Origin: Candidatus Bipolaricaulis sibiricus
GTDB lineage: Bacteria; Bipolaricaulota; Bipolaricaulia; Bipolaricaulales; Bipolaricaulaceae
Direction: 5' to 3'
DNA length: 64,000 nt
Assembly: GCA_004102645.1 (NCBI GenBank)
Contig: CP034928.1
Span: 1,418,153 to 1,482,152, forward strand
In this document: positions 1-29,848 of the stretch, piece by piece
Numbering within the stretch: position 1 is the first letter of the stretch
How the letters are laid out: every line of letters starts with the position of its first letter
Translations under genes and position numbers: made by a program
The notes under the pieces: generated by a model
Database searches by the model: none
The model's input: only the letters and a program-made list of their open reading frames with translations
Told to the model about the DNA's origin: nothing

Positions 1-857
<857 letters not shown>

Positions 858-24655: not shown

Positions 24656-25825
24656 GTGGGCTACCGGTACGTGGTCGTCGGGGCGGGGCGGCAGGGCGTG
24701 GCCGCCGCGTACGACCTCGCCCGGCACGGCGAGGCAGAGCAGATCACGCTCCTCGACCGCGACCTTGCGATCGCGCGCGCCGGGGCAGAGCGGCTGAACC
24801 GGCTTCTCAGCCGACGGGTGGCGGAAGCGCGGGTGGGGGACGCCGCGCAGCCCGAGGCGCTCGCCCCACTTCTGGCGGCGGCCGATGGGCTCTTGTCCGC
24901 GGCGTCATACCGGTTGAACCTCGGGCTGGCCCGGCTCGCGGTCGAAACGCGGACGCACATGGTCGACCTCGGAGGCCACACAGGGATCGTCCGCCACGAG
25001 CTCGCCCTCGACCCCGACGCCAAGCGGGCAGGGATCGCCCTCGTGCCCGACTGCGGGATGGGGCCGGGGATGAACGTGACCCTCGCCCTGGCGGCGATCG
25101 CCCTCCTCGACCGCGCGGAGGAAGTCCGGATCTACGATGGCGGCCTTCCCGAGCAGCCGCAGCCGCCGTGGAACTACGCCCTGTTCTTCAGCGCCGAGGG
25201 GCTGGTGAACGAGTACGAGGGCGAAGCGTACTTCCTCCGGGCGGGCGAGGTCACCCCGGTTCCCGCGCTCACCGACCTTGAGGAGCTGGAGATCCCTCCG
25301 CTGGGGCGGCTGGAGGCGTTCGTGACCTCGGGCGGGCTCTCCACGATGCCGTGGACGTTCGCGGGGAAGCTCCGGGTCCTCGAGAACAAGACCCTCCGCT
25401 ACCCTGGCCACTGTCACCTCGTTCGCGGCGTCCGCACGTTGGGGTTGTTCAGCCGGGAGCCGATCCCCGTGGGGAACAGCACGGTCGTCCCGCGGGACCT
25501 CTTGATCGCCCTCTTCGACCGCTCCCTCGCCGACCCAGACGCCCGAGATGTGTGCCTGATCCACGTCCGGGCGCGGGGGACGCAGAACGGCCAGCCGGCC
25601 GAGGCCCGGGTGAACCTCGTCGACCGCTACGACCCCCAGACCGGGTTCCGGGCGATGGAGAAGCTCACCGGCTGGCACGCCGCGCTCGTCCTCGCGCTCG
25701 CCGTGCGGGGGGAGATCCCACCCGGGGCGACCCCGATCGAGCGCGCCCTCCCCGGAGACCGGTTCCTCGCCGAGGCCCCGGCGCGGGGCTGGCGGGTCGA
25801 GCAGTCCGTCGGCCCGGCGGGGTAG
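24656..25825 (+). CDS. saccharopine dehydrogenase-family oxidoreductase
   Basis: A 389-residue NAD(P)-dependent oxidoreductase of the saccharopine dehydrogenase family. The N-terminal Rossmann motif VVVGAGRQGVAAAYDL (6-21) is clear, and the catalytic-domain blocks DLGGHTGIV, DCGMGPGMNV and GGLSTMPWTF resemble lysine 6-dehydrogenase-like members. The true substrate is unknown. It starts with GTG behind GAGGAGGT at 5-6 nt and follows the flavodoxin gene. Confidence 0.85.
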   Translation: MGYRYVVVGAGRQGVAAAYDLARHGEAEQITLLDRDLAIARAGAERLNRLLSRRVAEARVGDAAQPEALAPLLAAADGLLSAASYRLNLGLARLAVETRTHMVDLGGHTGIVRHELALDPDAKRAGIALVPDCGMGPGMNVTLALAAIALLDRAEEVRIYDGGLPEQPQPPWNYALFFSAEGLVNEYEGEAYFLRAGEVTPVPALTDLEELEIPPLGRLEAFVTSGGLSTMPWTFAGKLRVLENKTLRYPGHCHLVRGVRTLGLFSREPIPVGNSTVVPRDLLIALFDRSLADPDARDVCLIHVRARGTQNGQPAEARVNLVDRYDPQTGFRAMEKLTGWHAALVLALAVRGEIPPGATPIERALPGDRFLAEAPARGWRVEQSVGPAG

Positions 25826-25866: not shown

Positions 25867-25895
25867 TTGCGCCTCGGTCCCCGGCGGGGTAAGCT
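25867..25895 (+). promoter_or_regulatory. promoter of the fluoride riboswitch operon
   Basis: TTGCGC (25867-25872) and TAAGCT (25890-25895) are separated by 17 nt. The predicted start of transcription near 25902 is immediately before the riboswitch aptamer, as expected for a leader RNA. Confidence 0.6.
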
Positions 25896-25906
25896 CGGTC
25901 CAATCT

Positions 25907-25955
25907 CGGGGATGGAGTCCCCCGTGAACCGCCCTCAAGGCTGATGACTCCTGCC
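25907..25955 (+). promoter_or_regulatory. fluoride riboswitch (crcB motif) aptamer
   Basis: The leader RNA matches the crcB-motif fluoride aptamer in order and spacing: GGGGATGGAGTC (25908-25919), CCCC, AACCGCC (25927-25933), then GGCTGATGACTCCTGCC (25939-25955). P1 pairs GGAGTC (25914-25919) with GACTCC (25946-25951). The 5' GGGG (25908-25911) pairs with CCCC (25920-25923) as the pseudoknot. GCC/GGC closes the small hairpin around CTCAA. The same conserved words (GATG, AA-C-GCC, GGCTGATG, CTC) occur in the Thermotoga petrophila aptamer. Fluoride binding with Mg2+ should stabilise P1 and switch the downstream genes on. Confidence 0.87.
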
Positions 25956-25979
25956 GCGATCGGGGGGACGGCAGGAGTC
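25946..25979 (+). terminator. riboswitch expression-platform hairpin
   Basis: GACTCCTGCCG (25946-25956) is the exact reverse complement of CGGCAGGAGTC (25969-25979), an 11-bp stem with a 12-nt loop. Its 5' arm is the same strand that closes P1 of the fluoride aptamer, so aptamer and hairpin exclude each other. This is the usual off-state terminator arrangement, though no clear U tract follows directly. Confidence 0.7.
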
Positions 25980-25988
25980 CCGTGATCG

Positions 25989-26014
25989 CCCTGCTCGGCA
26001 GGGTTCTCTCTTGC
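25989..26014 (+). terminator. second leader hairpin with pyrimidine-rich tail
   Basis: CCCTGC, loop TCG and GCAGGG (25989-26003) form a 6-bp stem followed by the T-rich TTCTCTCTTG. This looks like a weak intrinsic terminator. It could complete the riboswitch platform or end transcripts from the upstream dehydrogenase gene. Confidence 0.45.
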
Positions 26015-26041
26015 CTCCCGGTCGCGCCCAAGGAGCTCGAC

Positions 26042-26161
26042 ATGGGTCGACGCGACGACGAAAAGGTGTGCGGAGTTCCTGTCTCCCCCTCGCTGAACTT
26101 CCAGGCAGGGGAACGGTGCCCACGCCGGGTTCTGCGGCTGACCACGTGTGAGGGGGCGTAG
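26042..26161 (+). CDS. 39-codon leader ORF before the antiporter
   Basis: ATG at 26042 is preceded by AAGGAG with ideal 6-7 nt spacing and opens a 39-codon frame (MGRRDDEKVCG...TTCEGA) ending with TAG at 26159-26161, two nucleotides before the antiporter ATG. The antiporter start itself has only a weak ribosome binding site, so the small frame may serve for translational coupling or encode a small protein. It is not recognisable by similarity and has no signal peptide. Two cysteines are present. It is too short to be sure it is real. Confidence 0.45.
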   Translation: MGRRDDEKVCGVPVSPSLNFQAGERCPRRVLRLTTCEGA

Positions 26162-26163
26162 GT

Positions 26164-27474
26164 ATGTTCGAGATCACCAGCCCAGTACTGGGAATGGGCG
26201 TGCTCCTCCTCGTCGGGTACGTCGGCGGCCGCCTGGCGCGGCTGGTCCGTCTCCCCGCGGTCGCCGGGTACGTCCTGGCGGGCGTGCTGCTCGGCCCATC
26301 GGTGTTGCGGGTGGTGCCGGCTTCGCTCCAGGAGAGCATGATGCCCCTGAAGGACTTCGGGGTGGGAATGGTGGCGATGGTCATCGGAGCCGAGCTGGTG
26401 TGGCGCAAGATGAAGCGGCTCGGGCTGAGCATCTTCCTCATCTCGGTCTGCGAGGCGGCAGCGACGTTCGTCCTGGTGTACCTTGCGATGCGCTACCTCC
26501 TCGCCCAGCCGCTCGTGGTCGCTGCCACCCTCGCTTCGCTCGCCACGGTGACGACGCCGGTTGCCACGTTTGCCGTGATCCGCGAGTACCGCGCCAAGGG
26601 CCCCTTCACGAGCACGTTGCTCGGGGTGATCGCCGCGGACGACATCTGGTGCATCACGGCCGTCGGGATCTCGGTGGGCCTCGTCCTGAGCATGGGCGTC
26701 GAGACGAATGCGCTCCAGTTCGCGCACCTCGTGCCCCCGCTCCTCGAAGTGGGCGGCTCGATCGGCCTCGGCCTGGGCATCGGCTTGCTGGCGGTGCTGG
26801 CGCTGCGGTTCATCCGCGATGAGTTGGAGACCCTCGCCTTCGTGGCAGCGATTGTGTTCGTCAACGCCGGCCTCAGCCGGTACCTCGGGATGTCTGCCCT
26901 TCTCATGACGATGTCGAGCGGCGTCGTGATCTCGAATCTTCTCCACGAGGACATCCTCAAGGTCATCCACCGGATCGACGTTCCCATCTTGATGGCGTTC
27001 TTCACCCTTGCCGGGGCGGGGCTCGACCTGCGCGTCCTTGTCGCGAACTGGTACATCGCCGCGGTGTACATCGCGTTCCGCATCCTCGGGAAGACCGGCG
27101 GCTGCTACGTGGGCGCCCGGATCTCGAACGCTGACCCGAAGGTGCGACGGTACCTCGGCCCGGCGATGCTCACCAAAGCTGGACTCAGCCTCGGGCTTCT
27201 CATCTACATGCAGGAGCGGCTCGCCGGGCTCGGGGTCGCGGCCCTGCTCGGATCGGTGGAGCTAGCGGCGATCACGTTCTTTGAGATCACTGGTCCCATC
27301 GCAGTGCGGTGGGCCCTGTTCCGGGTGGGGGAGGCACGGCACCCCGGTGAAGTTCTCGGCGAGGAGACGGTCAGTCCCGCCGAGGGTCTCCCTGCACCGA
27401 TGGGCAGCCTAGTTCCGGTCTCAAACGTGGTGCCGCTGCCTGATGGCGTCCACGATGAGGAGGCCGCTGAGTGA
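26164..27474 (+). CDS. CPA2-type cation/proton antiporter under fluoride riboswitch control
   Basis: A 436-residue membrane protein of the Na_H_Exchanger (CPA2/KefB-like) family with about 12 transmembrane segments. The ion-binding aspartate pair is Asp159-Asp160 in GVIAADDIWC, and the unwound TM4 stretch TVTTPVATFAV and the TM10 lysine region ILGKTGG are present. There is no C-terminal TrkA domain; the tail from 385 is hydrophilic. Fluoride riboswitches mostly control CrcB/Fluc or CLC-F but also some proton antiporters, so this protein may move fluoride or help cells survive it. The stop codon shares bases with the next gene's start (TGATG). Confidence 0.88.
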   Translation: MFEITSPVLGMGVLLLVGYVGGRLARLVRLPAVAGYVLAGVLLGPSVLRVVPASLQESMMPLKDFGVGMVAMVIGAELVWRKMKRLGLSIFLISVCEAAATFVLVYLAMRYLLAQPLVVAATLASLATVTTPVATFAVIREYRAKGPFTSTLLGVIAADDIWCITAVGISVGLVLSMGVETNALQFAHLVPPLLEVGGSIGLGLGIGLLAVLALRFIRDELETLAFVAAIVFVNAGLSRYLGMSALLMTMSSGVVISNLLHEDILKVIHRIDVPILMAFFTLAGAGLDLRVLVANWYIAAVYIAFRILGKTGGCYVGARISNADPKVRRYLGPAMLTKAGLSLGLLIYMQERLAGLGVAALLGSVELAAITFFEITGPIAVRWALFRVGEARHPGEVLGEETVSPAEGLPAPMGSLVPVSNVVPLPDGVHDEEAAE

Positions 27475-29042
27475 TGACGCGCAGCGCTCGGGAAACAGGT
27501 CTTGCAGCCACGTGGACATACCCGATCCGTGCGCGAGAATTCCGGCCTCCTGGGCGTTCGCCACGCCGCGGTCAGGACGAGCGTCTGGCGGCACACCCCC
27601 CGGATGTTGGATTGAAAGACCTGACCCCACGGCCTCCACATCATCGGGGCGACCCTGGCCTGCCTGAGCTCGTGCGCAAGCTCGCCCAACCAGGCTGCCT
27701 TCTCTGTCGCGAGGCAGCGGAGGCCGAGGAACGGTTCTTCCTGTGGTACCTCGCCGAGAGCTACCTCTTCCCGGAGAGCTTGGACCACATGATCCGCGCT
27801 CACGGCTTCTGCTCACCCCACACCCAGGCGTTCCTCGAGGACGGGATCCCGTCCACCATCGCCTACGTGTACCGCTTCCTGGCGGCGTCCGCACTGGATG
27901 CTGTGGAGACGGTGGAGGGACCGCGAGCGCACGGGAGAGAGCTGCGGTACCGGATCGCGGCCCTCTTCCCAACGGCATCCTGCCTCGTCTGCGTACGCCA
28001 GAATGCTCACCTGACCTATGTCGAGCAGCTTCTGGCACGCCTGTTGCGTGATCGAAAGGTCCGCCCGGAGCTTCCGCCGAGCCTGGCGGTGTGCCTCCCC
28101 CACCTGCGCGCGCTTGCCCCGTTCCTCGATCAGCACGCGCTTCAGCTCCTTGCCACGGGGCTGCGGGAATGCCTCGCCGCGGCCGATCCCCGCGCTACCC
28201 GGTCGTGGACGTGGGGTACGCCACCGCCGCCCACCCCGGCCACGCCGGAGATCTGCGTCGCAGATGAGCATTCGACCACGCTCGATGCGGTGCGGAAGGT
28301 CCTGGCCACGCCGGGTTGCGCGGTGTGCCGGGCCGAAGCCGTCGCGGTTGGCCAGTACATCGCTTGGCTCGAGCGAGAAATCCACACTGCACCCAACGCA
28401 ACGTGGCACAGCGGTCTGGCGCTGTGTCCGAGCCACGGCTGGCAGTTCGCGCGGAGTGCGGCCGAGGACGCGGTAACCCAGCTGGCCGTCGCCGTTCGGC
28501 TCTTCTGGACAGAACGGCTGGCCGAGCTTGCGGAGGCGCTCACCGCCGCGCCCCGCGGGGGCCTCGGCCGCCGGTGGGCGTTCGTGCGGGCAACGATCGA
28601 ACGCCGCCACGGATCACGCCGCGAGGCGTTCCTGACCGCGGCAGCGGAGGCCCTGCGCTCCCAGCGGCGAACGGCAAGAACCAACGCGGACCGCGCGTTC
28701 CGCTGCGCACCTTGCCCCGTCTGCCAAGCCGCAGAGACGGCGCGTGAGCGAACCCTGTCCCTCATCACCGCCTCGCTCGGCGATCCCGGAGTCCAGCAGG
28801 CCTACAACGCTGGAGATGGTGTGTGCTGGCGGCATCTACCGGGGGCCGTGACCCGCGCCCGGTCGTCCGAAGCCGCGCTCATCCTCCACACGGCACGGGT
28901 TAGGCTCTCCGTCCTCAACTGGGAACTCGAGGAGTACCTCCGCAAGCAGAGCTGGGACACGCGCCATGAGGCGCGGGGACCCGAGGGGGGAGCGTGGCAG
29001 CGCGCAGCGCGGCTTCTCTCCGGAGTGGATCAGGCGCCATGA
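27474..29042 (+). CDS. protein with four CxxC...CxxH modules, function unknown
   Basis: An unrecognised protein of up to 522 residues, soluble, with four evenly built metal-binding-like modules, each CxxC, 32-34 residues, then CxxH. Counting from the GTG at 27471, the Cys/His sets are 76/79/114/117, 171/174/208/211, 283/286/319/322 and 415/418/452/455. Each CxxC is followed by a helix rich in Ala/Glu/Arg. The pattern resembles DUF6062-like proteins. The first 60 residues are low-complexity and unlike protein, and contain a relative of the 14-kb repeat (27616-27628), so the true start may be internal near 27640-27670. Start coupled to the antiporter stop (TGATG). Confidence 0.7.
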   Translation: MTRSARETGLAATWTYPIRAREFRPPGRSPRRGQDERLAAHPPDVGLKDLTPRPPHHRGDPGLPELVRKLAQPGCLLCREAAEAEERFFLWYLAESYLFPESLDHMIRAHGFCSPHTQAFLEDGIPSTIAYVYRFLAASALDAVETVEGPRAHGRELRYRIAALFPTASCLVCVRQNAHLTYVEQLLARLLRDRKVRPELPPSLAVCLPHLRALAPFLDQHALQLLATGLRECLAAADPRATRSWTWGTPPPPTPATPEICVADEHSTTLDAVRKVLATPGCAVCRAEAVAVGQYIAWLEREIHTAPNATWHSGLALCPSHGWQFARSAAEDAVTQLAVAVRLFWTERLAELAEALTAAPRGGLGRRWAFVRATIERRHGSRREAFLTAAAEALRSQRRTARTNADRAFRCAPCPVCQAAETARERTLSLITASLGDPGVQQAYNAGDGVCWRHLPGAVTRARSSEAALILHTARVRLSVLNWELEEYLRKQSWDTRHEARGPEGGAWQRAARLLSGVDQAP

Positions 29043-29848
29043 TCTTCACCTCCACCCGCAGCGCGATTCGGCAGAGCGTTGTGCGCAGCGAGCTGCGGTT
29101 GAACCTCCTTCGCATCTGTGCCCGCCAGCCACGGACGATCCACGACCTCATCCACGCCCCATCCTATCCCGGAATCGAGACAAACCTATTCACAATCCAG
29201 TCCGAGATCGGCGTCACGATCGAGCTTGGTGAGTGCAAGAACCGCGAGCTACTCGTTCGGGTGGGGCACGTCCCCGACCCGATCGTCCCTGACGGACACA
29301 CCGAGCTTCTCCGGACATCCCTTCTTGCATTCTTGCTCGTTCCAGAGCTGGCCTACGCCGAGCCCGAGGCGTACAGGTTGTACCTGGACGCCTGGTTCGC
29401 GTCGCCCGCCGTGACGGAGGCGTTGGGCACCCAGGCCCCCGAGGTGCAGGCTGTGTTCCTCGCCTTTCCCGAGCTCGCCCATCGCCTGTTCTGCGTGACC
29501 CACCCTGGCCGAGAGCGTCGGGCCGAGCTCCCGTACGATCTTGCCGAGACTGAATGGATCCGGGTGTTCAACCTCTACCACATCGCCGACCTTCCTGTCC
29601 GCCCGGCTCGTCTCCCCGTTCGCGAGCTGCTGGCGGCCCTGCGCAGACCCCCGCTCGACTTCGGCGGGAAGCGGCTTCAGGGGAGTCACTGGAAGGCCGT
29701 GAAGGGTCGCCGGATGCGGTCCTTAATCCGCTTGGCACGCATCCTTGGTCGCCGTCCGATCCACGCCACGCCCTCCCCGTACACAGTCTCCGACCTTGCG
29801 GGTCCCGAGCTCGTCGAGCACCGACTCCGTCCCTTCGCGGCCTCCTGA
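29039..29848 (+). CDS. protein of unknown function coupled to the CxxC-module gene
   Basis: A 269-residue soluble protein that I do not recognise. The N-terminal 50 residues (VRSELRLNLLRICARQPRTIHDL...) could form a winged-helix-like domain. The middle has PELAYAEPEAYRLYLDAWF and two cysteines (ICARQ, ECKNR), and the C-terminal third is rich in arginine, ending in a PIHATPSPYTVSDL block. The ATG overlaps the stop of the CxxC-module gene (ATGA), so the two are made together and may act together. It is the last gene of the fluoride-riboswitch unit and is convergent with the WD40 gene. The 29849-30060 gap shows no further gene. Confidence 0.7.
   Translation: MIFTSTRSAIRQSVVRSELRLNLLRICARQPRTIHDLIHAPSYPGIETNLFTIQSEIGVTIELGECKNRELLVRVGHVPDPIVPDGHTELLRTSLLAFLLVPELAYAEPEAYRLYLDAWFASPAVTEALGTQAPEVQAVFLAFPELAHRLFCVTHPGRERRAELPYDLAETEWIRVFNLYHIADLPVRPARLPVRELLAALRRPPLDFGGKRLQGSHWKAVKGRRMRSLIRLARILGRRPIHATPSPYTVSDLAGPELVEHRLRPFAAS

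Follow-up and report, generated by a model that had tools for sequence, protein, structure and literature searches.

A fluoride riboswitch and its three genes

The window analysed here is a stretch of 64,000 nt, to whose full length the coordinates refer, and it belongs to a Bipolaricaulota genome (G000) that consists of one 1.70 Mb contig with a completeness of 99.83% and is treated as complete. Within it, a fluoride riboswitch aptamer (crcB motif, RF01734; 25899-25960, forward strand) is followed by three co-directional, overlapping genes, encoding an antiporter, a DUF6062 protein and a protein that we call P3. Just 5' of the riboswitch lies a dehydrogenase-like ORF (24656-25825), and because a homologous ORF cluster precedes the aptamer in G002, G007 and G010, the boundary of the locus looks conserved. 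The 5' part of a 16S rRNA gene occupies the window edge (1-855, reverse strand). The whole analysis builds on comparative evidence from samples of 100 Bipolaricaulota and 251 Chloroflexota genomes; most of these are incomplete assemblies, which weakens absences in single genomes, but G000 is complete.

The crcB-motif identification, proposed in a first-pass annotation of this DNA, passed the covariance-model test, scoring 55.5 bits in cmscan against a gathering threshold of 34 (E = 1.1e-12), with zero non-standard pairs in the match to RF01734. This aptamer was the only copy found in a whole-genome search of G000, and we consider it almost certainly genuine and fluoride-sensing. Its pseudoknot pairs GGAGTC (25914-25919) with GACTCC (25946-25951), and since the latter strand lies inside the 5' arm of an 11-bp hairpin (25946-25979, forward strand; arms GACTCCTGCCG at 25946-25956 and CGGCAGGAGTC at 25969-25979), the hairpin and the ligand-bound aptamer are predicted to be mutually exclusive. 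This putative switch helix of the expression platform is kept in five species, and its complementarity exceeds that of shuffled sequences (p = 0.003, 300 shuffles). The hairpin had thus been recognised correctly and is conserved, whereas its supposed target had not: it excludes the pseudoknot strand GACTCC instead of P1. A terminator-like hairpin and then a T-rich tail (TCTCTCTT) follow at 25988-26004 on the same strand, with an equivalent hairpin in four relatives. The promoter claimed in the same annotation was not recovered by a simple scan for the sigma-70 consensus (0 sites).

In operons of other genera that begin with P3, the start codon stands only some 15-35 nt past the aptamer. We scored the pairing of the Shine-Dalgarno region with the pseudoknot strand in 23 leaders, all outside the window genus, two of which (the antiporter leaders of G025 and of contig L141) carry no information because the strand had been mis-placed in scoring. 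Complementarity was detected in the P3 leaders of G018, G048, G091 and L141 and in two leaders of G025 (p = 0.003-0.037), and most of the remaining leaders of the 23 gave no significance; a further value for the DUF6062 leader of G018 (p = 0.04) was discounted, as the pairing falls within coding sequence. Both leader layouts would be compatible with fluoride turning expression on, at the level of transcription in the window genus and of translation in the other genera.

The first gene (26164-27474, forward strand, 436 aa) encodes a monovalent cation/proton antiporter of the CPA superfamily, with a full-length match to PF00999 (E = 6e-25; 88.3 bits against a cut-off of 26.2) and a match to the CPA2 model TIGR00932 that stays below threshold. 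Its predicted ion site, A-A-D-D-I-W, aligns near the N-D of PaNhaP (4cz8) in a weak alignment (E = 4e-4), which places the CPA2-like aspartate pair (DD) in the ion-site helix. The protein therefore resembles CPA-superfamily antiporters such as PaNhaP, NapA and KefC in its full-length match and its aspartate pair, but it is only weakly similar to those with solved structures, as that alignment illustrates, and has no regulatory domain.

The second gene (27474-29042, forward strand, 522 aa) encodes a DUF6062 protein (PF19538, E = 3.6e-10; 40.1 bits against a cut-off of 27). All four C-x2-C...C-x2-H modules described earlier are present (residues 75/113, 170/207, 282/318 and 411/451), compared to two in ordinary DUF6062 proteins, which it otherwise matches in score and module pattern; four-module forms also occur in fluoride islands of Chloroflexota. 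The third gene (29039-29848, forward strand, 269 aa) encodes P3, which belongs to no Pfam or NCBIfam family. The three genes are joined by TGATG and ATGA overlaps as first described; the ATGA overlap between the second gene and P3 is conserved, whereas TGATG is not. Relatives have an 82-nt gap at the latter junction, and conservation of the DUF6062 protein sets in only after the first ~40-60 residues, which leaves its start uncertain.

Homologs of the DUF6062 protein keep the module consensus C-x2-C-R...E...C-x2-H, with C25, C28, R29, E45, C63, H66, C114, C117, C151 and H154 invariant in the alignment. The model predicted for a two-module member (pLDDT 91, pTM 0.88) arranges helical modules in series, and DUF6062 is probably a tandem helical C3H protein; zinc binding is likely. 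A search of the PDB with this model found no structural neighbour (best E = 0.93), so that only context informs the function of DUF6062, and a comparison of the sequence with solved structures gave no credible match. No mention of DUF6062 was found in the open-access literature.

P3 likewise gave no credible sequence match to solved structures, and no relatives in viral contigs. Its predicted model (pLDDT 85, pTM 0.87) has a winged-helix-like N-terminal domain, for which the best Foldseek matches were mostly winged-helix proteins of GntR, MarR and ArsR type (probability up to 1.00, with a best E of only 7.7e-3). The N-terminal ~110 residues of the model may correspond to those regulators, but the C-terminal ~150 residues are unmatched, sequence similarity is absent and the predicted recognition helix is acidic. 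DNA binding by P3 is therefore plausible but unproven, and we give it slightly less than even odds.

DUF6062 and P3 behind independent riboswitches

Both downstream proteins had been regarded as unrecognised members of a fluoride response. Their membership is well supported, since a genome search turned up both after separate fluoride riboswitches in genera other than that of the window, and in the case of DUF6062 in a second phylum as well; "unrecognised" does not hold for the CxxC protein, which is Pfam DUF6062. Within the window genus, the antiporter-DUF6062-P3 trio follows the aptamer in four more species, two of the loci being broken by contig ends. Other genera carry different PF00999 proteins in the same position, in many cases with a universal stress protein (Usp) downstream, and the order riboswitch, antiporter, optional Usp, then DUF6062 and/or P3 was found in G003, G052, G058 and G072. 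Genome counts are not counts of independent events; the placements cover several genera, at least four families and two phyla.

P3 was present in 22 of the 100 Bipolaricaulota genomes, 18 of which have a riboswitch (Fisher p = 1.9e-9), and in 17 genomes the two share one locus. The riboswitch directly precedes P3 in eight genomes (G018, G025, G031, G035, G036, G048, G090 and G091) and DUF6062 in five (G018, G025, G069, G085 and G087), and about 15 Bipolaricaulota genomes have DUF6062 behind its own or a shared riboswitch. In G018 the two arrangements converge, G025 has two separate switches, and in G048, G090 and G091 a riboswitch-P3 unit faces a riboswitch-dynamin-DUF6062 operon, on contigs that are partly broken. 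The four genomes with P3 and no detectable riboswitch all belong to genus g12 (G022, G030, G032 and G034). Here P3 is followed by DUF6062 in three, the fourth being broken by a contig end, and this adjacency suggests that the two proteins work together. A search for a hidden riboswitch upstream of P3-DUF6062 in g12 returned none at E ≤ 0.5.

Several single loci deserve mention. A fluoride riboswitch in G006 (L110; C155:47-424) precedes an apparently decayed DUF6062 gene with internal TAG stops, and P3 is split in G023 (L104). Among the 251 Chloroflexota genomes, P3 was found on one contig only (L141; G100:C35), labelled Anaerolineae, which carries P3 with two divergent fluoride riboswitches, is very similar to G025 and is probably a misbinned Bipolaricaulota contig.

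In Chloroflexota, DUF6062 occurs in 67 of the 251 genomes and RF01734 in 81. Of the 83 DUF6062 matches there, 28 are no more than 12 kb away from a fluoride riboswitch, and 14, each in a different genome, have one on the same strand 73-322 nt upstream, compared to a chance expectation of about 0.01 for the latter (127 gene-switch pairs × 800 nt / (2 × ~3.9 Mb) = ~0.013). The islands also hold genes for enolase, pyrophosphatase, MutS-like proteins, CrcB, Usp, HAD, PF00999 and hydrogenase-4/formate-hydrogenlyase; such classical fluoride-riboswitch genes serve as a positive control, with mutS, K+/Cl- transport and formate hydrogenlyase among the reported targets (PMC2864571). The other 69 of the 83 DUF6062 matches lack a riboswitch immediately upstream; DUF6062 is thus not a gene of the fluoride response only, and those without a riboswitch have scattered contexts with no consistent partner.

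Four fluoride islands of Chloroflexota each encode a fusion protein with DUF6062 attached C-terminally to a Dynamin_N GTPase (L256:14709-16574, L260:9227-11728, L263:12094-14145 and L275:16432-18156). Together with the dynamin-DUF6062 operons of Bipolaricaulota, these fusions link DUF6062 to GTPases of a family that is known to act on membranes. In six Bipolaricaulota genomes, dynamin-family GTPases also come immediately after fluoride riboswitches (L114:6835-8631, L113:366-2219, L116:4586-6445, L118:4950-6773, L121:2793-4052 and L100:6559-7242; one scored by Pfam, the rest assigned by clustering) and are apparently an unreported target; no mention of the pairing was found in the open-access literature. 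One Chloroflexota island (L256-L257; G216:C30:185935-215361) has eight fluoride riboswitches in 30 kb, with MutS-like, pyrophosphatase-cluster, CrcB, hydrogenase-type and DUF6062-dynamin genes. Pairs of a MoxR-type AAA ATPase and DUF58 recur beside fluoride riboswitches and DUF6062 in Chloroflexota (L264:4169-6541, L270:2933-5178 and L261:7849-10143), and in each of the two phyla there are fluoride-riboswitch operons that encode a small HEAT-repeat protein next to P3 or DUF6062 (L106:5329-5724 and L270:5175-5639).

Known exporters and the role of the antiporter

Fluc/CrcB (PF02537) and CLC (PF00654) each gave 0 matches in G000. Across the phylum sample of 100 genomes, Fluc/CrcB was found in 5 and CLC proteins in 12; the 28 genomes that bear a fluoride riboswitch all lack Fluc/CrcB, and none of the CLC proteins is located at a riboswitch. 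CLC-F proteins are defined by GREGT/V and GNNLI/GMGLI signatures (PMC11139923). The selectivity motif of the phylum's CLC proteins is GREGP wherever readable, and no GNNLI/GMGLI signature was found at their loci, L190 and some fragments being incompletely read. The antiporter is thus the sole riboswitch-linked transporter recognised in G000. It takes the position that Fluc/CrcB and CLC-F occupy behind fluoride riboswitches in other bacteria, but those exporters are missing from G000 and from the riboswitch loci of Bipolaricaulota, so that riboswitch-bearing members appear to cope with fluoride without a recognised exporter. Antiporter operons of relatives lacking the aptamer, which the first-pass annotation had held would speak against a fluoride role, were not seen among close homologs of the antiporter (89-93%): these are present in 4 of the 11 genomes from the window genus, each time with the aptamer at the locus.

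How, then, should the three genes be read? If the antiporter alone were the regulated target, DUF6062 and P3 would be mere passengers on its transcript, and because the window genus has both genes after the antiporter, the present locus, taken by itself, does not discriminate between passengers and true targets. The riboswitches that P3 and DUF6062 have of their own in G018, G025, G048, G090 and G091, together with the 14 direct riboswitch-DUF6062 cases in Chloroflexota, already largely refute such a passenger role, which we regard as highly improbable; DUF6062 and P3 are very probably true members of the fluoride regulon. Membership does not require a fluoride-specific activity, and general stress or membrane-maintenance proteins might have been recruited repeatedly to fluoride control. 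The many Chloroflexota DUF6062 genes with scattered neighbours and no riboswitch would agree with this, as would the membrane work suggested by the dynamin fusion, but P3 is nearly confined to riboswitch-bearing genomes and DUF6062 lies with fluoride genes far more often than by chance, which makes repeated recruitment possible yet not the favoured account of these regulon members.

The antiporter, for its part, might be a fluoride exporter working by F-/H+ exchange, a third class beside Fluc and CLC-F. Its standing as the only such transporter recognised in a complete genome that lacks Fluc and CLC points that way, and so does the presence of unrelated PF00999 types in the same place in other genera. 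Against export, the PF00999 members whose activity is known are cation/proton exchangers, the aspartate pair is of the kind usually seen at cation sites, and PF00999 proteins also occur in the fluoride islands of Chloroflexota, a group that has CrcB as well. Na+/H+ antiporters are moreover the second commonest class of fluoride-riboswitch targets, for which pH homeostasis is the accepted reason (PMC11139923). We therefore consider direct F- export by this protein unlikely; it more plausibly acts through pH and ion balance, a role that is as likely as fluoride export, or likelier.

A proposed route to fluoride tolerance

The locus is probably a fluoride-induced tolerance operon. Fluoride would enter as HF and dissociate inside the cell, where its binding to the aptamer would free the leader (ON switch) and raise expression of the operon. 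If no exporter acts, [F-]in/[F-]out = 10^(pHin-pHout), so exchange of Na+ or K+ for H+ that restores ion balance or lowers internal pH would reduce internal fluoride. The antiporter could thus form the transport part, letting protons in, restoring the cation/proton balance and lowering equilibrium internal fluoride. DUF6062 would work with a dynamin-like GTPase, or as its C-terminal part, in a membrane or stress role, probably at the membrane, and P3 would most likely be a fluoride-induced regulator or adaptor that may tune expression of the set.

More speculatively, riboswitch-bearing Bipolaricaulota may tolerate fluoride without Fluc or CLC-F by means of the antiporter, DUF6062 (with dynamin-like GTPases) and P3, the latter serving as a fluoride-induced transcription factor in a riboswitch-to-protein relay, and either the antiporter or the DUF6062-dynamin pair providing an undescribed form of fluoride handling; as a whole, we hold this scheme to be doubtful. 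Like other crcB (RF01734) riboswitch operons, the locus combines an aptamer that exceeds the gathering threshold with transport and stress genes downstream, but it differs from the usual ones in that DUF6062, P3 and dynamin-like GTPases are targets and the phylum mostly lacks the usual exporters. None of the three was found as a riboswitch target in the open-access literature, and their recurrence beside fluoride riboswitches in many genomes marks DUF6062 and P3 as components of the bacterial response to fluoride that have apparently gone unrecognised.

Fluoride riboswitches report which genes matter under fluoride stress, and to that list the locus described here and its relatives contribute two families, DUF6062 and P3, along with dynamin-like GTPases. 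They also single out a phylum in which genomes with the riboswitch encode the sensor and neither of the known exporters, so that coping with fluoride without Fluc or CLC-F becomes directly testable, and they provide a first functional context for DUF6062, a domain that roughly one in four of the Chloroflexota genomes sampled contains.
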